From NCBI RefSeq assembly GCF_023897015.1, contig NZ_JAMHFY010000027.1, positions 1 to 63,515 on the forward strand: a stretch of DNA of 63,515 bases, given 5' to 3'. Below, in pieces: positions 3,156 through 19,310 of this stretch. The position numbers and the translations under genes are program-made. The stretch is from Desulfosporosinus nitroreducens (GTDB lineage Bacteria > Bacillota > Desulfitobacteriia > Desulfitobacteriales > Desulfitobacteriaceae). The notes beneath the pieces were generated by a model. That model made no database searches. It saw only the letters and a list, made by a program, of their open reading frames with translations, and had not been told where the DNA came from. Position 1 is the stretch's first letter, and the number at the start of each line of letters is the position of its first letter.

Positions 3156-4691
3156 ATGTGGTTAGCCTTGTGCGCGGTCATATTGGGAACCTTTGTAACG
3201 GTTCTCAATAATAGCTTGATTAATGTGGCCATTCCCGAAATGACCAATGTGTTTGGATCTACCACTGATACGATGCAGTGGGTATTAACGGGATATTCCT
3301 TGGCTGCCGCAATTGTCATACCGCTCAGTGGTTTTCTGGGTGACCGGTTTGGGACTAAGAAACTATTCATCATCTCCTTAGCCGGCTTTACCTTAACTTC
3401 GGTATTATGCGGTTTGGCCTGGAGTGATATCAGCCTGATTGCCTTTCGGGTCCTGCAGGGCATATCAGGGGGGGTACTTTCCCCTTTAAGCATGACGATC
3501 ATTTACGGGATTGTTCCTAAAAACAAAATCGGCACAGCCTTGGGCATATGGGGAATCGCGGCTATGGCAGCCCCGGCAGTTGGACCTACCGTCAGTGGCT
3601 ATTTAATTGATTTCTTTAGCTGGCGCTGGCTGTTTTTTATCAGTGTTCCCTTTGGGATTTTTGCCGTTACGGCAGGGATATTCCTGCTTAAAGAATCACC
3701 GCTGAAGCAAGCCAGCTTTGACCTGGGGGGAGCGGTATTATCCGTTATTTTCTTTTCGACCCTGCTTCTGGCTTTAGGTCAGGGAAATAAAGAAGGCTGG
3801 ACATCCTTATATATCGTAGGCCTATTGTTTGTTTCCTTCTTTAGCCTGCTGCTGCTGATCTGGGTGGAAGCCGGAGCGGAAGACCCTCTCCTCGATTTAC
3901 AATTATTTAAAAATCCGGTTTTTACCTTAAGTGTGATCTGCGGCGGTTTGGTCATGGCAGGGTTAATGGGAGGGTCTTTTCTTGTCCCCCTCTATTTACA
4001 AAATGTGCAGGGGTTAACTCCCATTGACACGGGGATTATTATGATACCTCAAGGTGTCTTAATGGCCTTAATGATGCCCCTCAGCGGCAGGCTATTTGAT
4101 AAGCTAGGGGTAGTCCCTGTGGCTATAGCCGGTTTGCTTTTAATGAGTACGACGACCTATGAGCTGCAGCACCTGGCTATTAATACACCCATTCCCTGGC
4201 TGACTGTGCTTCTGGCCCTGCGGGGAATGGGAATTGGGCTATGTATGATGCCAATTACCACCGCCGGAATGAATTCGATTCCCAAAGAACTTATCGGACG
4301 GGGATCCTCCTTATCCAATGTCTTGCGTCAGGTTGCGGGGACTATGTCCATTGCCATATTTACCACGATCATGACTAATCGCCAGATTTTTCATGTCAGG
4401 AACATCGCGGACAGTATTCCTTCCGATTCCTATCTGGCGACACAATTTCTTAGTCAGATTTCATCAGCACTTGCCCAAATGGGTACAGATGCTGCCACGG
4501 CAACCGGTGGTGCCAGTGCTGTTTTAGTCGGTATTATTCAAAAAGAAGCCTTAAACTCTGCTATTGCGGATACTTTTCTGATTTCCGCCATACCTTTGTT
4601 TGTCTGTATTCCCTGTGTTTTTTTGTTTATCAAGAGAAGAACAGCTAAGACGAAGCAGAAAATGGTTCCCGCGAAGGAAGCGGCTCTTTAA
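3156..4691 (+). CDS. DHA2 family MFS drug transporter (EmrB/QacA type)
   Basis: A 511-aa integral membrane protein with about 14 predicted helices. It shows the MFS motif A region (GFLGDRFGTKKLF), a motif B/C-like stretch (FRVLQGISGG) and the DHA2 pattern GIWGIAAMAAPAVGPTVSGYL. It exports hydrophobic drugs or cations using the proton gradient. It is the last gene of the operon; an AGGAGG site 5' of the ATG decides the start. The very short tail before helix 1 (MWLALCAVILGTFVTVLNNS) is slightly shorter than usual, but no earlier start is plausible. Loopless palindrome 4785-4836 follows the gene. Confidence 0.92.
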   Translation: MWLALCAVILGTFVTVLNNSLINVAIPEMTNVFGSTTDTMQWVLTGYSLAAAIVIPLSGFLGDRFGTKKLFIISLAGFTLTSVLCGLAWSDISLIAFRVLQGISGGVLSPLSMTIIYGIVPKNKIGTALGIWGIAAMAAPAVGPTVSGYLIDFFSWRWLFFISVPFGIFAVTAGIFLLKESPLKQASFDLGGAVLSVIFFSTLLLALGQGNKEGWTSLYIVGLLFVSFFSLLLLIWVEAGAEDPLLDLQLFKNPVFTLSVICGGLVMAGLMGGSFLVPLYLQNVQGLTPIDTGIIMIPQGVLMALMMPLSGRLFDKLGVVPVAIAGLLLMSTTTYELQHLAINTPIPWLTVLLALRGMGIGLCMMPITTAGMNSIPKELIGRGSSLSNVLRQVAGTMSIAIFTTIMTNRQIFHVRNIADSIPSDSYLATQFLSQISSALAQMGTDAATATGGASAVLVGIIQKEALNSAIADTFLISAIPLFVCIPCVFLFIKRRTAKTKQKMVPAKEAAL

Positions 4692-4784
4692 GCGGATGGT
4701 TTGAAGCGGGTTCATAATTCTTTATCTTAACTTTTGCGGGTTTTCAAGCCGCATGTTCTTCGTCATAAAAGAGAGAGGCTGCTC

Positions 4785-4836
4785 CCGGGCTTGTACCAAG
4801 AATCTTACGCGCGTAAGATTCTTGGTACAAGCCCGG
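4785..4836. repeat. 52-bp perfect loopless palindrome
   Basis: Each arm is 26 bp (4785-4810 and 4811-4836) with no mismatch and no loop; the centre is TTACGCGCGTAA. The inner 24 bp recur at 14431-14454. No U-tract follows, so it is not a classical terminator, though it sits just beyond the efflux operon and could form a cruciform or an RNA hairpin. Confidence 0.85.
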
Positions 4837-4845
4837 ACGGGTTAA

Positions 4846-4950
4846 CCCTCCTTGTCGACCCTATTTACGACCCTCTCCAGGCTTAATCCTTCGACTGAAA
4901 ACCGACTGCCGGCAGTTCTTCTTTTCAGCATAATGGGGCTTTTTCACCAA
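4846..4950 (+). repeat. Gene-tail plus terminator repeat, copy 1
   Basis: Resembles 12901-13012. Both copies contain a short coding-like tail ending YDPxQA-stop (CTCCAGGCTTAA here), about 20-30 bp of spacer, a CTGCCGGCAG hairpin and a T-rich run. They look like the 3' end and terminator of two related genes whose bodies are gone. Identity of the lost gene is unknown. Confidence 0.45.
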
Positions 4951-4958
4951 AATTCATA

Positions 4959-6533
4959 TTATTTACTGCTATGAATGCTGTATTGTTTTAACTGTTTTAG
5001 TAGATGATTAAAAGCGATGTAACCATTATCACCCTGAAATAATTCAAACGAACAAACATAATCATTGTATCGATTAAAGGTATTTAAATAAACTCTGTTA
5101 TTAGAATTATCAGCTTTTTTCAATATAAAATTTAAGATATCTATAGAAATATTAATTTCACTTAAAACTATCTCTTTTTCTATAGATATTGCTTGAGCTA
5201 TGATTATCTTATTGTCTTTTGTATAAATGGTATTTGTTTTGAGCCCATTATTTCTAAGTTCTTTTATAATTTCAGCTGAAAATCTAATATTTAAATGTAA
5301 ATCTTGATGTTCCTTGTAACACTCTATTTCGACATCCTTTTGAATTTCCTTTTTAAATATTAATCCTAGCTCTTCATCTAGTGCCGTTTGCGCTTTTATT
5401 TTAAATATTTCTTCAATAACACCAAAAAATAACTTAAAATTATTTTTTGAAAATGAATTAAATGGAACTACTTCATTCAGTATATTATCTGCAAACTCAT
5501 TTTTTGACAATGTATAGGCTTTTTTTAATTTACCTTCTTTGATCAAATTCTTTAGTTCATCTTTATTGGCAATTTCTAAACCCCGATAATTTATATATAC
5601 TTCATCGTCTATAATTAAATTGGGCATATCTTCTTTTGCTTTTAATGAGTAAATTTTATTTCCTGTTTTTTCATCATCTTTATTAAAGTTAAATTCATTG
5701 CTTAGATATAGTCGCTTATCATTTTTATCTTTTATTTTTATTTCATCGTCAGTATAATAGTTTTCTATACTAATTGCAGGGGTGTTTTGTCTAAATTTCG
5801 GTAATGGTAATATCACAACATAAACATTATTCCCTAAATATTGATAACTCTGTTCAGTTTTATAAAGTTTATTGATATTTTCCTTATCAGAGTCAAATAC
5901 AAAAATACGAAGTTTTTCATTATAAAAAAGAGCATTGTATTGACAAATAGTATTTAAAGTATCTGCCCCACCTATTTTTTTATTTTTAAGCCTATCATTA
6001 CTATCAGCTAAACTTCCATCATATTCTAAAAACTTAAACTCTAAATCATTATACAAACCGTCTGAATTGAATTTTTTAAAAGCTGCCTTTAAATGTTTCC
6101 AATCAGTCTTACCTTCCGTAATAATCAGATTCTGATTCATATTTAATAAATCGTGAATAAGCCTCTCTTTATTGGGTACAAAAGACTTAATACAAATATG
6201 TGTCATTATCTTTTCATTCTTTAATACTAACAACACTTCATCTTCCGTATTACTTTTTTCTGTTTGAACAATTTCATCAATCGAAATAATAAGACGATCT
6301 TCATCTTCAATTCCATATACAAATAATAGTCGGGAATATGAATCTTCATTTACATATGCTATCTTAAACTTATTATAATTAACAACATAATCCTGTAGGG
6401 AATAATTATCGACCTTATTTACAATTAGTTTTACATAAATCCATTTCCTTTCAAATTGCTTTATTATTTTAATGGCGTCTTCTTTTGAAGTTTTAACCAG
6501 TCTTATGTCTGATTGCAAACTATTGTATTCCAT
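4959..6533 (-). CDS. TOPRIM-domain protein of a defence locus
   Basis: A 524-aa protein, AT-rich compared with flanking genes. A TOPRIM core is visible: EGKTD at about residue 140 (catalytic Glu) and FVFDSD at about 212-216 (DxD), as in OLD-family nucleases, primases and topoisomerases. No ATPase domain is attached, unlike OLD or GajA. The N-terminal 130 residues are a separate, unrecognised domain. The start is set by GGAGG five bases before ATG at 6533; a GTG at 6569 and an ATG at 6545 are alternatives. It lies downstream of the HNH and ATPase genes on the same strand after a 756-bp gap, so it may be part of the same immunity locus or an independent one. Confidence 0.6.
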   Translation of the reverse strand: MEYNSLQSDIRLVKTSKEDAIKIIKQFERKWIYVKLIVNKVDNYSLQDYVVNYNKFKIAYVNEDSYSRLLFVYGIEDEDRLIISIDEIVQTEKSNTEDEVLLVLKNEKIMTHICIKSFVPNKERLIHDLLNMNQNLIITEGKTDWKHLKAAFKKFNSDGLYNDLEFKFLEYDGSLADSNDRLKNKKIGGADTLNTICQYNALFYNEKLRIFVFDSDKENINKLYKTEQSYQYLGNNVYVVILPLPKFRQNTPAISIENYYTDDEIKIKDKNDKRLYLSNEFNFNKDDEKTGNKIYSLKAKEDMPNLIIDDEVYINYRGLEIANKDELKNLIKEGKLKKAYTLSKNEFADNILNEVVPFNSFSKNNFKLFFGVIEEIFKIKAQTALDEELGLIFKKEIQKDVEIECYKEHQDLHLNIRFSAEIIKELRNNGLKTNTIYTKDNKIIIAQAISIEKEIVLSEINISIDILNFILKKADNSNNRVYLNTFNRYNDYVCSFELFQGDNGYIAFNHLLKQLKQYSIHSSK

Positions 6534-6980
6534 TTCAACCTCCATTTCGCCGTTACCTCTGGGTGACACAAATAGATAAGAAAAACAGTGAGCGTTTTCA
6601 TGTTAAGACTATTTTAGGAAAAGATCACTACAAAGCACGGTAAGGTGAGTCGTAGACTGTCCTTCTTGACTTAAATCAGTATTTTAACCAGGTTTAAGAA
6701 ACATATTATAAGCACAAATTAAGTGGTTCTATAAAACCGCACACTAATCATTTTTTAGCCAATCGTTTAAAATGTTGATGATTAATTCAATACCTCCCCC
6801 CTACACTGAAAGCCTAACGATAATATGTTAAGATAGGAAAATGAATAATCGGAAATAAAAGTTTATTGCTTCTCAATGATCCTTTCATTATTAATTGCTC
6901 TGAAAAATGTTACTTTCAGAAGAAGTCTATATCTAAAATTATAAACCTCTTTTTTATAACTTTTAAACTTACCTCGTTTG

Positions 6981-7036: not shown

Positions 7037-7160
7037 CAATCGACTCATTTAAGCTACTGGTGATTTCGGAAACCCTGCCAAATATCATTGGCCTGAGAAC
7101 CTCCGTTATAGTGACGCCGTCGAAAGCCGCCCTTTCCAGTTCATCCAATCCTATAGGCAT
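7008..7160 (-). CDS. Small hypothetical ORF (50 aa)
   Basis: Begins MPIGLDELERAAFDG and is preceded by an AGGAG site five bases before the ATG. No family is recognised. Its last codons run into the decayed hairpin repeat, so it may be the start of a longer gene truncated by that repeat rather than an intact gene. Same strand as the neighbouring HNH/ATPase pair. Confidence 0.3.
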   Translation of the reverse strand: MPIGLDELERAAFDGVTITEVLRPMIFGRVSEITSSLNESIEKSAVLRFD

Positions 7161-7289
7161 GGATACTCCTGTCCTTTTCTGGCGTTGCTAATCCCGCTGA
7201 TGTAAATCTTATTGTTGCACTTGGCCTTTCTCTCAGTGTTTAGGGAGGAACTGGGTGGTTAAAAATAGCCAGTTGAATTTTTAAAGCTT

Positions 7290-11423: not shown

Positions 11424-11745
11424 GGGTGGAATCTACGTGCAAATGAAGCTCACTCAAATTGGTAAAATGGATCAGGATCGAGCAACAGAACTTATTAGAA
11501 ATATATCTCGTTCTTCAAACAGCCAAAATAAGGTCAGCGATGCTGACTTTTTTGCAACACATCCATTTCATGTGCGTATGGAGCAATTCTCGAGAAGAAT
11601 TTTTGCGCAGGCTGAGGGGGCGCAATATGAACAAAATGGTTCTGTGAACGTGCCCGCGGACAATATTTTCAGGCGAAAATGCGTTTAACCCCGGCTAAAA
11701 AGAAACAATTTGTTTTACAAAATCCAAAGCGTCCCTTTCCCGAAC
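11424..11745 (+). pseudogene. AIPR-family (abortive infection) gene fragment, frameshifted
   Basis: Starts at GGIYVQMKLTQIGKMDQDRA and continues through KVSDADFFATHPFHVRMEQF, a signature of AIPR proteins. At about 11638 one base is missing in CAAAATGG: restoring it gives WFCERARGQYFQAKMRLTPA, again AIPR. Both ends of the gene are missing. AIPR genes often sit beside methyltransferase and vsr genes, matching the neighbouring vsr remnant. It is a non-functional relic. Confidence 0.75.
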
Positions 11746-11757
11746 TTCAGCTCTCAC

Positions 11758-11970
11758 TCAGCGATAAGGTTTCTTATTTTCTGTCAGCCCGACCAAATAG
11801 TCAATGCTGGTTTTATAAAACTGGGCGAGTTTAATCATGATATTCAGCGGAACATCACGCTCTCCTCGCTCATATTTAGAGTACAAAGATTGATCACACA
11901 TCAGGTATTGTGCAACTTGCTGCTGGGTTAGATCATGATCTTCTCGAACATCACGTATTTTTAAGCGCAT
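11758..11970 (-). CDS. XRE family helix-turn-helix regulator
   Basis: A 70-aa protein that is almost entirely one Cro/CI-type HTH: IRDVREDHDLTQQQVAQYL, then the recognition helix region DQSLYSKYERGERDVPL and the typical end LAQFYKTSIDYLVGL. The start MRLKIRDVRE matches the family; in-frame starts 6 and 12 bases earlier are also possible. It is divergent from the receiver-domain gene at 12076, and two AGGAC..GTCC operators lie between them. Confidence 0.85.
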   Translation of the reverse strand: MRLKIRDVREDHDLTQQQVAQYLMCDQSLYSKYERGERDVPLNIMIKLAQFYKTSIDYLVGLTENKKPYR

Positions 11971-11996
11971 TATCATCACCAAAGCAAGTATATCTT

Positions 11997-12036
11997 AGGA
12001 CGCATAGTCCTATTGACATATTGGACTATTTGTCCT
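11997..12036. promoter_or_regulatory. Paired XRE operators
   Basis: Two related dyads: AGGACGCATAGTCCT (11997-12011) and GGACTATTTGTCCT (12023-12036), whose reverse reads AGGACAAATAGTCC. A TTGACA box lies between them (12013-12018). Their position between divergent genes suggests autoregulation by the XRE protein. Confidence 0.6.
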
Positions 12037-12075
12037 GAAATTATTCAACAAACCCTTGATGTTGGAGGAGATGTT

Positions 12076-12459
12076 TTGTTCACCATCGGCATTTGCGATG
12101 ACAGACCGTTGTCCCGTCGCTTATTGGAGGCCCTAATTCATCTATATGAAGAAGAAAATGATGTTGTATTTAATATTTACGAATTCAGCAGCGGCGAGGA
12201 GCTTCTCGAAGAAATTGAAATGCAGGGATTGGTTTTTGACCTCCTCTTTCTTGATAACAGCATGAAAAAGCTAACCGGTCTTGAGACTGCCAGACAAATA
12301 CGCCAATCTAAGTCCATGTCAGCCAGCAGTATAGTATTTGTGACATCCGCAGAGGATCACGATCAATTCATGCAGGTCAAACCTTTACAAATCGTATGCA
12401 AACCCTGTACCCAGGAACACATTGAAGCTATCTTAGAGAAGGTTCTGGCTAAGCCGTAA
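12076..12459 (+). CDS. Stand-alone response-regulator receiver domain
   Basis: Encodes FTIGICDDRPLSRRLLEALI, the start of an AgrA/LytTR-type receiver, with the phospho-acceptor Asp in LLFLDNSMKK and the Lys near KPLQIVCKP. The start is TTG at 12076 because GGAGGAG lies just upstream; an in-frame ATG at 12013 lacks a site. The protein is 127 aa and stops right after the receiver, so the LytTR DNA-binding half is missing. It may act through protein contacts or be a truncated gene. No histidine kinase is adjacent. Confidence 0.75.
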   Translation: MFTIGICDDRPLSRRLLEALIHLYEEENDVVFNIYEFSSGEELLEEIEMQGLVFDLLFLDNSMKKLTGLETARQIRQSKSMSASSIVFVTSAEDHDQFMQVKPLQIVCKPCTQEHIEAILEKVLAKP

Positions 12460-12460
12460 A

Positions 12461-12799
12461 TCAGCTCAAATAATGCTTTTTCATAATTCTTAACAACAAA
12501 AAATAATTAACAACTCCCCCCTCTCTACTTCCCCTTTCTTTCCTCCATCGTCTAATCAAAAACCCATTCAGCATCTTCGCATACTCTCCATGCACCTGGT
12601 CATCAACCTTTGCCAGCAAATCCATCTCATAACTCAGTTCCTTGAACGCTTTTTCCAAACTCACGAAGAAAAAAGCGATTTTAGACGTGAGCAGCTTGAT
12701 CTGGGCAGCGGCCAGCTCATTACTCACCCTTTGGTAGCTCTTTAAATTCGAATTTTCCGCTAGCTTCTTATTTTTCATGGTCTTTTTCTCAACATCCAT
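12461..12799 (-). CDS. Hypothetical helical protein (112 aa)
   Basis: Unrecognised. Highly charged and helix-prone throughout (NELAAAQIKLLTSKIAFFF; LEKAFKELSYEMDLLAKV), with a basic C-terminal patch RRWRKERG. No membrane helix or signal peptide. It converges on the receiver-domain gene with a 1-bp gap. The start is uncertain: ATG 12799 or ATG 12778, neither with a strong ribosome binding site. Confidence 0.5.
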   Translation of the reverse strand: MDVEKKTMKNKKLAENSNLKSYQRVSNELAAAQIKLLTSKIAFFFVSLEKAFKELSYEMDLLAKVDDQVHGEYAKMLNGFLIRRWRKERGSREGGVVNYFLLLRIMKKHYLS

Positions 12800-13266
12800 T
12801 CCCCATACTTGATGACCCTGCTATGAATTCCCTTATCGCCAGCGATATATCCTTAACACCCAGCAATGCCCTGACGAGAATACGGGATATCAAGGTCATT
12901 GATACGACAACAAATGGTCTTTATGACCCTCCCCAGGCTTAACTGTTCAAAGGGAAAAGGAAACTGCCGACAGCGTCATAGCTGCCGGCAGTCCTCTTCA
13001 CTATAAAGATTTTTTTCTAAATCAACCTGCTACACTACCTATCTGTGGAACCACCCTTAGTGCCTATGTAGTGGTTTTTGCGCTCAACCTCTCGGACCTT
13101 AATGACCACAGCGTCAAGTTCGGGGCTCCCACGGATAAGAAATCGTTATACCAAGGGAAGAATGACATTTTCATTTTCTGCCATTTAGCCTATCAGTCTC
13201 AAGGAATACCCTTAAGTTTTTGGGGGAAAGATTAACATATCTTTAATTAAATGTGAGGGACGTATT
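12800..13266. other. Gap with gene-tail repeat
   Basis: A short plus-strand frame (about 12812-12943) ends YDPPQA-stop and is followed by a hairpin; see the repeat at 12901-13012. I cannot name the gene it came from. 13020-13260 shows no recognisable coding sequence. Confidence 0.5.
12901..13012 (+). repeat. Gene-tail plus terminator repeat, copy 2
   Basis: Matches 4846-4950 in layout and partly in sequence: CTCCCCAGGCTTAA stop region, spacer, then an 11-bp stem CTGCCGACAGC/GCTGCCGGCAG (12964-12991), with a T-run at 13010. The stem and T-run look like a working terminator. Confidence 0.5.
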
Positions 13267-13491
13267 GTGGAACTTAACTTTCAGAGAAATCTAAGCGCTT
13301 TAGACAGAGGAATACGTGTTGTTATTAGCTTGGTTTTATTCGGTTTAGCCGCTATGGGATTTTTCAAAGGATGGATAGCAACCGCAGCTAGTATCTTGGG
13401 TCTCTTCAACCTACTAGAAGCTGCTATTGGTTACTGAATTGTTTATGACATCATGGGTTGGTCAACCCGCGAAAATATTGAGCTGCATTAA
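13267..13491 (+). CDS. DUF2892-like small membrane protein, candidate selenoprotein (UGA at codon 57)
   Basis: GTG start with GAGGGA seven bases upstream. It encodes LNFQRNLSALDRGIRVVISL and two membrane helices, as in DUF2892/YgaP-tail proteins. In that family a Cys follows the second helix, then (P/V)xYxxLGxxT. Here the Cys codon is TGA (13435-13437), and the same frame continues with IVYDIMGWSTRENIELH before TAA, so homology crosses the stop. A hairpin with a GGTC loop begins 17 bases after the TGA and fits the bacterial SECIS pattern. Read-through gives 74 aa with Sec57. The alternative is a plain nonsense mutation removing the last 17 residues. Confidence 0.6.
13454..13469 (+). promoter_or_regulatory. 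SECIS-like hairpin after in-frame UGA
   Basis: GGGTT (13455-13459) pairs with AACCC (13464-13468), extended by a U-G pair, enclosing the loop GGTC. The loop starts 22 bases after the UGA. Published bacterial SECIS models ask for a loop about 16-37 bases away with a G in its first two positions; this loop has GG, like the E. coli fdhF loop. Confidence 0.5.
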
Positions 13492-13523
13492 TCTTCGTTT
13501 ATCATCACAAAGGGGTTGTTTAT

Positions 13524-13709
13524 ATGTCCGGTAAGCTTAAGATTGAAATCCTTGATGATAAGAATGTGCTGGAAATCTTTGAATCGGAACCCGGTAAACT
13601 AACCTTTGTGATGTATCCCGATGATCCCAAGGACGAAACAATTCTTGAGGTTAACGTCGATACTGCTGAATTTTCATCGCTTCTTAAACGCCTTCTTGAT
13701 ATCAGCTGA
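13524..13709 (+). CDS. Hypothetical acidic protein (61 aa)
   Basis: Unrecognised. The ATG follows AAAGGGG. The sequence alternates short beta-prone and acidic stretches (KIEILDDKNVLEIFESEPGK; MYPDDPKDETILEVNVD) and ends with a helix (FSSLLKRLLDIS). No Cys, membrane helix or signal. It begins 32 bp after the candidate selenoprotein, on the same strand, so it may be co-transcribed. Confidence 0.6.
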   Translation: MSGKLKIEILDDKNVLEIFESEPGKLTFVMYPDDPKDETILEVNVDTAEFSSLLKRLLDIS

Positions 13710-13841
13710 AAAATCCAGAACGACGTTGTCCCTATCGACCTCGCTGCAACCGGATTGATCCAAATAACTTCTTCCCGTTTCTGACCGCCATCACAGCGAG
13801 CAAGTTTGGTTTCCGATAGCTAAGCTATTTATCTCGATGTC

Positions 13842-14030
13842 TTATTTCCTTCTCATGTGATGCCCCAGTTCTTTTTGCAGTCTGACCACCAAGGCATCAA
13901 CTTTGCGGTTCTGTGTCATAACTGCTTCATCCTGTATAATCGGAATTCCATTATTTATGGCTTCCTCAACAAGCCTGTGCAGTTTTTCCTTTTCTCTTTT
14001 CAGCCTTTCATCCAGAGATATTTTCCCCAT
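13842..14030 (-). CDS. Spo0E-like aspartyl-phosphate phosphatase
   Basis: A 62-aa protein starting MGKISLDERLKREKEKLHRL; the ATG at 14030 has AGGAG seven bases upstream. Two helices carry the Spo0E-family pattern: a first helix ending LVEEAINNG, and a second with TQNRKVDALVVRLQKEL, corresponding to the SQxLDxLI motif. In this family the motif faces Spo0A-P or Spo0F-P and removes phosphate, delaying sporulation. The first motif residue pair is TQN rather than SQ, so activity is not certain. Supports a spore-former. Confidence 0.6.
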   Translation of the reverse strand: MGKISLDERLKREKEKLHRLVEEAINNGIPIIQDEAVMTQNRKVDALVVRLQKELGHHMRRK

Positions 14031-14179
14031 GCTGAAATCTCCTTTTGCCCCGCACATTAATTTATTTAAGCATTAACAGTATAAATCATCTCTATTTTAT
14101 TTTCAACGGTATTCCGGTAATCATTTGTTATGCACATTGTTATCTTAGATTTAACGGAATAACGGTTAGAGGTGATCAA

Positions 14180-14454: not shown

Positions 14455-14514
14455 ATTTTGCTAAAGTTTACAAATACAAAATGGTGTTACAAATTGCATC
14501 TGAATGATAACGAA

Positions 14515-14557
14515 AAGAATCGAATTCCCAGGCCCTCGGTTTGGGAATTCGATTCTT
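14515..14557 (+). terminator. 16-bp stem hairpin
   Basis: AAGAATCGAATTCCCA (14515-14530) pairs perfectly with 14542-14557 around an 11-base loop. It lies between the XRE gene and the thioredoxin-like gene. The T-run is weak (TTCCTATCC), so termination is plausible but not certain. Confidence 0.5.
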
Positions 14558-14707
14558 CCTATCCTCGTCAACTCAGTGTGGTCATGGGGTAATTTCCATG
14601 GTACCTTGCTTTGACCGCAATCGGTGCTTCTGTCATAATAGGAGTTGTCTCCATTCTTTTTTCAATATAAGATTTATTCTAAAATAAAGGGCTGCAGCCT
14701 TGATAAA

Positions 14708-15184
14708 ATGCTAAAGGTGTGGATTACGAAGACAAAAACCAAGGTCCTAATCATACTAACGGTTGCCATTTTGTCCATAATGGCATTAATAATTCCCAGA
14801 TACTCAAGCCCTTCGGAATTCCACCCAACTAATCAACCAATGGTTGCTTTCCAAGAAGCTCAAAAATCTGGGAAACTGACTTTTTTAGAATTTTATGCCA
14901 AATGGTGACCCAGCTGTAGGAGCATGGAGCCCGTGGTGCTGGCTCTAGAGAAAGAATACCGAGATAAGGTCAACTTCATTGTTGCTGATATCGACGACCC
15001 TCAAGGACAGGCTCTTGCCCGACTCTTCTTGAGTAAGCCCTTTTTCTTTACGATACCTACATATATTTTGGGCCAAATCGACTCTCATCTTTTCACGCTC
15101 CTTTATGCCCCTATTTTATTGTTTAGGGAAGAGCGTTTCAATAACTTAATATTTGATATTCTTACAAACTCAACTTTAGGTTGA
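14708..15184 (+). CDS. Membrane-anchored thioredoxin-like protein, candidate selenoprotein (UxxC)
   Basis: One N-terminal membrane helix (KVLIILTVAILSIMALII), then a thioredoxin fold: KLTFLEFYAKW is followed by TGA (14906-14908) and PSCRSMEPVVLALEKEY. The TGA sits exactly where the first Cys of the WCxxC site belongs, giving U67-P-S-C70. The fold continues with VNFIVADIDDPQGQALARLF and the cis-Pro motif TIPTY. It resembles TxlA/HCF164-type thiol reductases facing outward. A stem-loop 16 bases downstream fits a SECIS. The start ATG 14708 has only a weak site. The C-terminal third is divergent. With Sec the product is 158 aa; without it only 66. Confidence 0.7.
14925..14947 (+). promoter_or_regulatory. 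SECIS-like hairpin after in-frame UGA
   Basis: TGGAGCC (14925-14931) pairs with GGCTCTA (14941-14947), one G-U pair, around the nine-base loop CGTGGTGCT. The loop begins 23 bases after the UGA and has G at its second position, within the published bacterial SECIS limits. An inner C-G pair would leave a GTGGT apex and a bulged CU. Confidence 0.5.
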
Positions 15185-15292
15185 AAACCCAAAATCCATT
15201 TAAGCCTCACTTTTAGGTAAAGCCTTTGGCCAGATAGGCACGAACAGGCTAGAAATTATTTAATTAGCTTTCATCAACTTATATTTTACGAC

Positions 15293-15329
15293 AAAAGACG
15301 GCTTCTGGCACTGCCAGTCGCCGTCTTTT
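15293..15329. terminator. Bidirectional terminator
   Basis: AAAAGACGGC (15293-15302) pairs with GCCGTCTTTT (15320-15329), with a nested CTGGCA/TGCCAG stem. The T-run follows on the plus strand and an A-run precedes it, so it can stop transcription from both sides (thioredoxin-like gene and the OsmC remnant). Confidence 0.8.
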
Positions 15330-17687: not shown

Positions 17688-19085
17688 TCAACTATTAAGC
17701 GATTCCTGCACTGGAACGACTGACGGTTTCTTCTTAAACACTCCTTTAAGATCATCCAACAGTGTATATACCACAGGTACAATTACCAGGGTTAAAACCG
17801 TCGATACGATTAACCCGCCTATGATGGTATAAGCCATAGGTGCCCGCGATTCCGCTCCCGCACCTGTTGAGAGCGCTGAGGGAAGCATACCAAAAATCAT
17901 CGCTAAAGACGTCATAATTATTGGTCTAAGTCGCGTGGAGCCGGCCTGAAGTATCGCTGCACTTCGCTCTACTCCCTCTACCCGTTTTTGCTTTGTGAAG
18001 TCAATTAATAAAATCGCATTTTTGGTGACTAGCCCCATGAGCATAATTATTCCGATAAATGCCATCATGCTTAAGTTGCTGCCTGAAAGAAATAGGGCCA
18101 GTAGTGCTCCACTGATAGCGAAGGGCAAGGAAAACAAAATCGCCAATGGATCAAGGAAACTTTCAAACTGAGCAGCCAAAATCAAGAAGAGAAATAAAAT
18201 TCCCATTAAAAATGCCGTGATTAAGCTGGCGATGCTTTCTGTCAGCCTTTCCTGATCTCCAGAGACAGCTTGACTTACCCCAGCCGGCATCATCGTGTCA
18301 CTTTTCAATTTGTCATTAAACAACGTATCAAAGGAACCGCTGGCAACTCCGACGATATTGGCAGTCACTTGGATTTCTCTGGCCTTGTCATATCTGTTTA
18401 TAGTACTTGAACCTGTGCTGAAGACTTGCTTTGTGACCATATCAAGAGGAACCATCTCACCATTTGTCCCCGGAACATAAATTCCTTTCAAACTGTCAAA
18501 ATCCCTTCTCTGATTATCTTGCAGCAATACTTTAACGTCGTAGCGATCTTTTTCTGTTTCATACTGGGTTACGATAGACCCATTAAAAAGCGTTGCCAAG
18601 GTATTAGCAACAACCACCGGACTCACACCTAGATCAGCCGCCCGATCGCGATCTACGTCAAGTTTTGCTTCCGGCTTTCCAGCCTTGTAATTCATACTTA
18701 CGTCAACCGCTCCCGGCATTTGTTTTAAGACTTTCTCGGCTTGCAATGAATAGTCTAAAAGCTGGTTAAAGTCATTGCCTTTGAAGTGATACTGAGCGTC
18801 CTTTCCTGACGTAATACCTGAGCCTGTAGTCAGCGCAATAATAATTCCAGAAACTTGCTGCAAATCCTTACGCACTTTATTGCCAAATTCACTTAAGGAT
18901 TCATTTCTGTCTTTTTTATCCGGCAATTTTACGCTTATGTTAATCTTATTAGGTGTAACCGTGGAGTATAGATACTTCACTTCAGGATACTTATTAATGA
19001 TACTTTCCATCTTTTTAGTGGTCTTAGTAGCACTATCCAGGGTTGTCCCTCCATCGAGCTCCACTTCTATGGTGATTGACATACT
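17688..19085 (-). pseudogene. RND (HAE1/AcrB) efflux pump, C-terminal half only
   Basis: Encodes about 465 residues equal to the second half of a pump subunit: VELDGGTTLDSATK, the porter-domain stretch KPEAKLDVDRDRAADLGVSP, and the last six membrane helices with GIIMLMGLVTKNAILLIDF and STRLRPIIMTSLAMIFGMLP. The intact paralogue at 51715-54807 is 1030 aa, so the first half with its proton-relay helix 4 is missing. The ORF's apparent start (ATG at 19106) lies in foreign PucR-like sequence. It cannot form a working pump alone. No adaptor gene is attached. Confidence 0.85.
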
Positions 19086-19310
19086 CGGTCTTTTTGTCTT
19101 CATCATGCTGCATAAGCTTTAATAGTTTTTCACTGCAGACGCGTTCCGGCTCGTATTGCCCTTTACAGCTGTCCAGTATATAACCAAAACATACTCGTCA
19201 AACTTATAATACCAGAAATCCGGCGTCTTCCTAATGCCGTATTCCAGTGCCGTTTCTGTCTCTTCATAGGCGGAACGGATATGACGCATCTCCGACTCCG
19301 TTCTTATTTC
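19086..19310 (-). pseudogene. PucR-like regulator, central fragment
   Basis: The minus strand reads RHIRSAYEETETALEYGIRK, then DFWYYKFDEYVLV and, after a one-base frameshift at about 19177, ILDSCKGQYEPERVCSEKLL. This is the region just before the HTH in PucR/CdaR-like regulators (AY..A..AL; F..Y.L; LL.L..HDED). It joins directly to the RND fragment at about 19085. Confidence 0.5.

Follow-up and report, generated by a model that had tools for sequence, protein, structure and literature searches.

A probable relic of a selenocysteine thioredoxin–CcdA fusion gene in Desulfosporosinus nitroreducens and its intact relatives in Bacillota

The window analyzed here is a stretch of 63,515 nucleotides from Desulfosporosinus nitroreducens, namely contig C19 in a draft assembly (G000) of 5.46 Mb that comprises 95 contigs and carries a contamination estimate of 4.61%. 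On its forward strand, a frame running from 14708 to a stop codon at 15182–15184 encodes a thioredoxin-like sequence with a lone in-frame TGA at 14906–14908 (codon 67), giving the active site W-U-P-S-C that an earlier note on this DNA had read. The ORF listing breaks the frame across this UGA into two ORFs (14645–14908 and 14924–15184), the outcome that the note had expected of a gene finder. The Pfam Thioredoxin profile matches window residues 49–99 (E 2.4e-10) at profile positions 11–62 of 103, and the domain is therefore incomplete. DNA alignments and protein identity delimit the surviving 5′ part of the gene to 14708–15023 (forward strand, codons 1–105), which holds the membrane anchor and the N-terminal part of the thioredoxin domain, about half to two thirds of it. 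The loci of Desulfosporosinus hippei, strain HMP52, and genomes G014 and G017 align to the window DNA with 83–91% identity (flank included), and every alignment ends at 15023.

Two close relatives of the window gene were found among named records, in Desulfosporosinus hippei DSM 8344 (locus L009) and Desulfosporosinus sp. HMP52 (L010), both with 93% identity over residues 1–107 (92.5% for the D. hippei protein); a thioredoxin with Cys from a Fibrimonadaceae bin (L011, 42%) is a third, remote match. Positions 3381–5739 and 5799–6316 of the D. hippei locus align to window positions 11725–14083 (94.7%) and 14506–15023 (83%), respectively, and the HMP52 alignment covers only the gene and about 100 bases ahead of it. 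Contamination of the window contig was considered and rejected on the synteny with D. hippei. Upstream of the gene, at 14515–14557, lies a perfect 16-bp inverted repeat with 11 bases between its arms, which also matches positions 5808–5848 of the D. hippei locus in reverse. Further downstream, an ORF on the reverse strand (17688–19106) resembles by eye the C-terminal part of an RND-type efflux pump and begins inside the protein; this may be another truncated gene.

At the matching position, D. hippei carries an intact 377-codon gene with the same TGA, and the HMP52 gene is near-identical to it. By Pfam, the intact protein consists of a thioredoxin followed by a DsbD_TM/CcdA membrane domain (in an intact relative, PF00085 at E 9.6e-16 over profile positions 15–101 of 103), and hydropathy places one membrane segment ahead of the thioredoxin and the rest behind it. 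Such full-length fusions are present in 15 of 29 genomes of the genus and, among 82 genomes of the class, in this genus only. The coding part of each contains one TGA, located at the UxxC site; TGA occupies this site in 15 of 15 intact copies and TGC or TGT in none, which is the result of the homologue comparison at residue 67 that had been proposed. Two copies (L042 and L043) have a second TGA, placed before the start. The own genome also holds an intact paralogue with the UGA, on contig C13, which is 76% identical to the window copy (residues 6–116) and 84% identical to the D. hippei protein. Two further relics of the gene were seen, one at L107:7186–7447 (G035), within the operon between FtsX and response regulator genes, and the other at L096:5500–5812, a second, broken copy in G017; both G035 and G017 are one-contig genomes.

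Compared with these intact copies, the window copy bears several lesions. The usual start codon of the family (codon 7, 14726–14728, forward strand), which lies downstream of a Shine-Dalgarno-like stretch (AAGGTG), is ACG here and ATG in the four nearest intact copies. In three intact copies (L038, L039, and L040, from G013, the own C13, and G018, respectively), ATA takes the place of the start ATG that follows the ribosome-binding stretch in the nearest relatives, possibly as a rare start codon. Thioredoxin homology ends at base 15023, at about codon 105, and the last ~52 residues of the window frame, including its 'cis-Pro' motif, are foreign. The sequence at 15024–15187 is an insert. Read in reverse orientation, it covers the beginning of another gene and some bases ahead of it; judged by eye, the product of that gene has an HTH-like N-terminus, and its remainder is methyltransferase-like. 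The insert is 82% identical to a segment of G018 (contig C28; L112, ORF 1546–2421), 77% identical to G025, and 76% identical to G016, with shorter matches in G013, G015, and G017. In G018, the only one of the first three genomes with ORFs listed, it is antisense to the start of a regulator-like gene (N-terminus MKDELAKNICRYRKEKGLTQEE...) and the bases preceding it. Within the own genome, the sole match of the insert is itself. Because the stretch is antisense of an unrelated gene, the IPT motif that had been taken as the cis-Pro of a frame continuing with normal thioredoxin sequence is fortuitous. The family's own cis-Pro region (YYIPAFF) and everything after it are missing from the window copy.

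Remnants of the original gene lie beyond the ORF stop codon. Positions 15203–15239 (forward strand) are a leftover of the CcdA part, matching D. hippei 6690–6726 at 97% and G014 and G017 at 100%, and positions 15239–15310 (forward strand) match D. hippei 7121–7192 at 97% and represent the 3′ end of the gene with its downstream sequence. With D. hippei as reference, 51 of 684 CcdA bases are recognized in the window, 37 at 15203–15239 and the final 14 at the start of 15239–15310. On the upstream side, 56 bases at 14606–14661 (forward strand) are 89% identical to L012 6649–6704. There, the FtsX-like permease gene located ahead of the intact paralogue has its 3′ end, and the window locus therefore once included a larger share of that operon. 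The positions 15023, 15203, and 15239 given for the junctions are those of the draft assembly. Among the surviving 105 codons, the changes unique to the window are four synonymous and one non-synonymous (the lost ATG), with no frameshift; these codons are little worn, and the decay is therefore recent.

Decay had been left possible on account of the divergent C-terminus, and is borne out by the loss of the start codon, the CcdA domain, and the last part of the thioredoxin fold. The DsbD_TM domain is lost from the window copy, whereas an intact relative retains it (PF02683, E 1.2e-29). The earlier note had described a stand-alone, TxlA-like anchored form; a complete separate anchored thioredoxin of this type was not found, since the nearest relatives are fused to the CcdA/DsbD domain, whereas in the window copy that domain is almost entirely gone and the gene ends at about codon 105. 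A functional, free-standing UxxC selenoprotein, anchored in the membrane and divergent at its C-terminus, is accordingly a very improbable reading of the window gene. The frame is open across the UGA, the hairpin described below is intact, and the upstream part is well kept, as such a protein would need, but the C-terminal sequence runs antisense to a different gene, the usual start ATG has been lost, the YYIPAFF region onward is missing, and fragments of CcdA and of the gene end lie downstream. The window copy is taken to be a pseudogene that should make no working thioredoxin, and no function is expected of it; a truncated peptide is possible, with the ATG at 14708 as a possible start.

The UGA is followed by a SECIS-like hairpin at 14925–14947 (forward strand), in which a 7-bp stem (TGGAGCC/GGCTCTA; 14925–14931 and 14941–14947) closes the loop CGTGGTGCT, which begins at nucleotide 24 after the UGA and agrees with the loop about 23 bases downstream that had been noted earlier. 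The hairpin core (GGAGCCCGTGGTGCTGGCTCT) is identical in 15 of 15 intact copies of the genus. Constraint on the bases is strongest directly after the UGA: synonymous identity among the 15 genus sequences is 0.934 in codons +1 to +10, 0.854 in codons +11 to +20, and 0.734 in codons +21 to +30, relative to a median of ~0.58 in sliding windows and a maximum of 0.73–0.75 in windows that start more than 20 codons after or 15 codons before the UGA. Folding energy by itself does not set the hairpin region apart (z −0.30 and −0.62 for two stretches, with further values of −0.46 and +0.36; none significant), and it is by reason of its conservation that the hairpin counts as beyond chance. Within the genus the hairpin hardly varies. 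In all 22 of the Sec-codon copies compared (15 distant, six intact copies of the genus, and the window), the loop of the best stem starts at nucleotides 24–27. Bacterial SECIS elements lie about 16–37 nucleotides downstream of the UGA; the hairpin falls within this range, and a SECIS role is predicted for it.

The genome has the machinery for decoding. All of selA, selB, selC, and selD, a search for which had been recommended, were found, each twice. Two tRNA-Sec genes with anticodon UCA were identified (a third match above the cut-off is a tRNA-Ser), together with two selB, two selA, and two selD genes over the cut-off, each selD with its own in-frame TGA. One selB lies with a tRNA-Sec gene on C66 (52780–61678), and selA and selD are located together on C55 (173868–176455). 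On C95 (88863–97276), selA, selB, and a tRNA-Sec gene are found together, beside genes that by eye resemble those of glycine reductase, and the second selD is on C22 (28795–29712). Two tRNA-Sec genes are also present in G017 and G027, and two have been published for D. orientis (PMC5330540). The earlier note had named a genome devoid of selB or selC, or close relatives with TGC at the site and further stops in this gene, as grounds against a selenoprotein; neither gene is missing and no close relative has TGC, and the gene itself proved to be decayed by other lesions.

The family extends beyond the genus. Of 398 genomes sampled from the phylum, 58 gave a match at E 1e-42, and the best 20 places were examined, 19 of them outside the genus. 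A thioredoxin that could be read, either adjacent to CcdA or in one chain with it, was present at 18 of these 19 and not at the remaining one (L160). The active site contains TGA in 15 of the 18 readable loci, which belong to seven further families (f13, f14, f36, f56, f68, f70, and f137), and TGT, encoding Cys, in the other three, all of family f45. A hairpin whose loop starts at nucleotides 24–27 after the codon is present at 15 of 15 Sec loci (with an outer stem mismatch in the distant loci L157 and L159) and at none of the three Cys loci. This association has a nominal Fisher p of 0.0012, which overstates independence, since the Cys loci are one clade; because all three Cys homologues come from family f45, few independent events lie behind it. 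Single fused ORFs were found at three distant loci (L145, L151, and L154), and at the other 15 the thioredoxin ORF stops 79–88 codons past the site and CcdA is the next gene. At two loci of family f14 (L174 and L175, in G285 and G261), the two-gene Sec-Trx/CcdA locus adjoins genes for a GerM-like protein (PF10646) and an N-acetylmuramoyl-L-alanine amidase. Neighbors were scanned at four distant loci (10 ORFs in total), and GerM-like and amidase genes occurred in these two, which hints at a link to sporulation in family f14.

These data also bear on the possibility that the UGA is a nonsense mutation or a real stop, and that the intact relatives make two polypeptides, the second from an internal ATG directly behind the UGA (MEPVV...). 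A 305-aa ORF beginning at MEPVV does appear in the ORF listing of two intact loci, yet a stop would split the thioredoxin active site in 15 of 15 genus copies and in 15 of 18 distant loci, and would leave unexplained the base-level constraint directly after the UGA, the Cys at the same residue in three distant, hairpin-free homologues, and the Sec machinery of the genome; this explanation is given very little credence. Reading of the UGA as Sec in the relatives of the gene is well supported by these comparisons of sequence, and the window UGA very probably goes back to a true Sec codon in an ancestor. The proposal of a UxxC selenoprotein therefore holds in part: the Sec codon by descent, the SECIS-type hairpin, and selA/B/C/D in the genome speak for it, and the window copy itself has decayed.

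In the own genome, the intact paralogue on C13 is part of a gene order consisting of a YtkA-like gene (by eye; no Pfam match), a polyferredoxin, an FtrD-like protein (PF10080), an ABC ATPase, two FtsX/MacB permeases, Sec-Trx-CcdA, a response regulator, and a histidine kinase. FtrD, ABC, and both FtsX genes accompany eight of the 15 intact copies in the genus (G000, G013, G015, G016, G018, G023, G026, and G027). Three have only part of the operon, namely the FtsX end, two-component genes, and a divergent FtrD (G021), two-component genes (G022), or an FtsX fragment (G034), and the four hippei-type copies (G011, G014, G017, and G019) have none of it. Of the 15 genomes with an intact fusion, 14 have FtrD-like genes, compared with six of the 14 genomes that lack such a fusion, three of these six having a partial copy or relic (p 0.005, with species that are not independent).

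One gene set of a Fet cluster (FtrD/DUF2318, ABC ATPase, two permeases, and thioredoxin) is present together at the C13 paralogue and not at the window locus. The 1.5-kb flanks of the 19 distant loci show no general Fet-type context, with one weak ABC match and one response-regulator match. At 10 distant loci (eight Sec and two Cys) extended by up to ~10 kb on each side, some of them cut by contig ends, FtrD, FtsX, and polyferredoxin gave no match at E 1e-8, and ABC matches at three of the 10 have 28–34% identity. FTR1 (PF03239), the family of the FetM permease, has no match in the own genome, in a search whose control was positive in four of 14 genomes. Iron uptake is not claimed, because FTR1 has no match in the own genome and no Fet-type context was seen at the loci examined outside the genus.

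Known CcdA/DsbD (PF02683) electron-export proteins likewise pair the membrane domain with an extracytoplasmic thioredoxin, and their thioredoxin-like partners include ResA, StoA, and TlpA. The thioredoxin domain of DsbD is C-terminal. The protein described here differs in being one chain with Sec in its thioredoxin part, in the order Trx-CcdA. Among NCBIfam models, none scored above its cut-off on the scanned proteins; Trx7/PDZ, StoA, ResA, and others scored below, and SaoT was absent from the matches. TsoB (NF045694), a rhodanese/DsbD fusion-like selenoprotein, is alike in combining a selenoprotein with a DsbD-type membrane domain, but its model scored 142.8 bits against a cut-off of 805, and a rhodanese domain was absent from the Pfam scan. 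In a 2026 inventory of prokaryotic selenoproteins (PMC13188914), TsoB is listed as UxxxxU with two Sec residues, in contrast to the single Sec in UxxC here. The same inventory lists a selenocysteine thioredoxin (Trx, PF00085, UxxC), which shares the thioredoxin domain and Sec at the first redox-site position, whereas the present family is membrane-anchored and fused or adjacent to CcdA, and its window copy is broken. A survey of 2006 records Sec thioredoxins in Carboxydothermus, among others (PMC1794560). In the open-licence text of two inventories, 'CcdA' occurs zero times and 'DsbD' once, for TsoB (PMC13188914), or neither term occurs (PMC9312934), and in the text covered the two name Sec thioredoxins and TsoB and no Trx-CcdA form. 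Sec thioredoxins and TsoB are thus already known, and the Trx(UxxC)-CcdA form, not found listed in the open-licence inventories searched, is apparently new. As regards the operon, the Campylobacter jejuni fetABCDEF cluster encodes a DUF2318 protein, an ABC transporter, and two thioredoxins (PMC10783030). The C13 locus resembles it in having FtrD/DUF2318, two FtsX/MacB-type permeases, an ABC ATPase, and a thioredoxin side by side, and differs in that FetE and FetF of C. jejuni are CXXC proteins, in that the own genome has no FTR1 match, and in the addition of a polyferredoxin and a two-component system.

Taken together, the evidence gives high confidence that a Sec-Trx-CcdA selenoprotein gene stood at this place in the window and decayed there fairly recently; an intact paralogue of it is kept at C13. 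An assembly chimera, in which truncation and insert hide an intact locus, is very improbable. Despite the draft state of the genome, with its many contigs and its contamination estimate, the sequence on either side and the remaining pieces of the gene keep the order seen in D. hippei, the insert matches only itself in the own genome, the lost start codon lies away from the junctions, and the gene has also left relics in G017 and G035, each assembled as one contig.

The ancestral protein of this relic would have been a membrane-anchored thioredoxin, with Sec as the first redox residue of W-U-P-S-C, in one chain with a CcdA/DsbD-type membrane domain. In intact copies, SelB and tRNA-Sec would decode the UGA as Sec at the hairpin ~24 nucleotides downstream, as suggested by the conservation and by the machinery. 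By analogy with known CcdA/DsbD chemistry, the CcdA part may take up electrons from thioredoxin in the cytoplasm and hand them through the membrane to the Sec-Cys pair; this pair would in turn reduce disulfides of extracytoplasmic partners. Among such partners in the genus, the FtrD-like protein, which contains Cys and whose gene adjoins about half of the intact copies, is a likely one. The window copy has lost the usual start codon and nearly all of CcdA, and a segment of an unrelated gene now stands in for some of its 3′ region.

In the wider family, the evidence leans slightly toward a so far unlisted electron-export module of Bacillota in which a selenoprotein is the extracytoplasmic partner of CcdA. 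This module would span at least eight families, as two adjoining genes in most of the loci read and as a fusion in several lineages; in Desulfosporosinus it would have been recruited to the side of a Fet-like FtrD/ABC/FtsX operon and repeatedly lost there, the window copy being one of three relics seen. Routine ORF prediction either splits a protein with an active-site UGA or places its start too far downstream (MEPVV...), and such a module is therefore easily missed. The window copy illustrates how a gene of this kind decays while keeping both its UGA and its hairpin, and it cautions against taking a frame open across a UGA, even with a good SECIS-like hairpin behind it, as proof of a functioning selenoprotein. 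If the partner of CcdA carries Sec, selenium chemistry would enter the trans-membrane thiol electron export of Bacillota.
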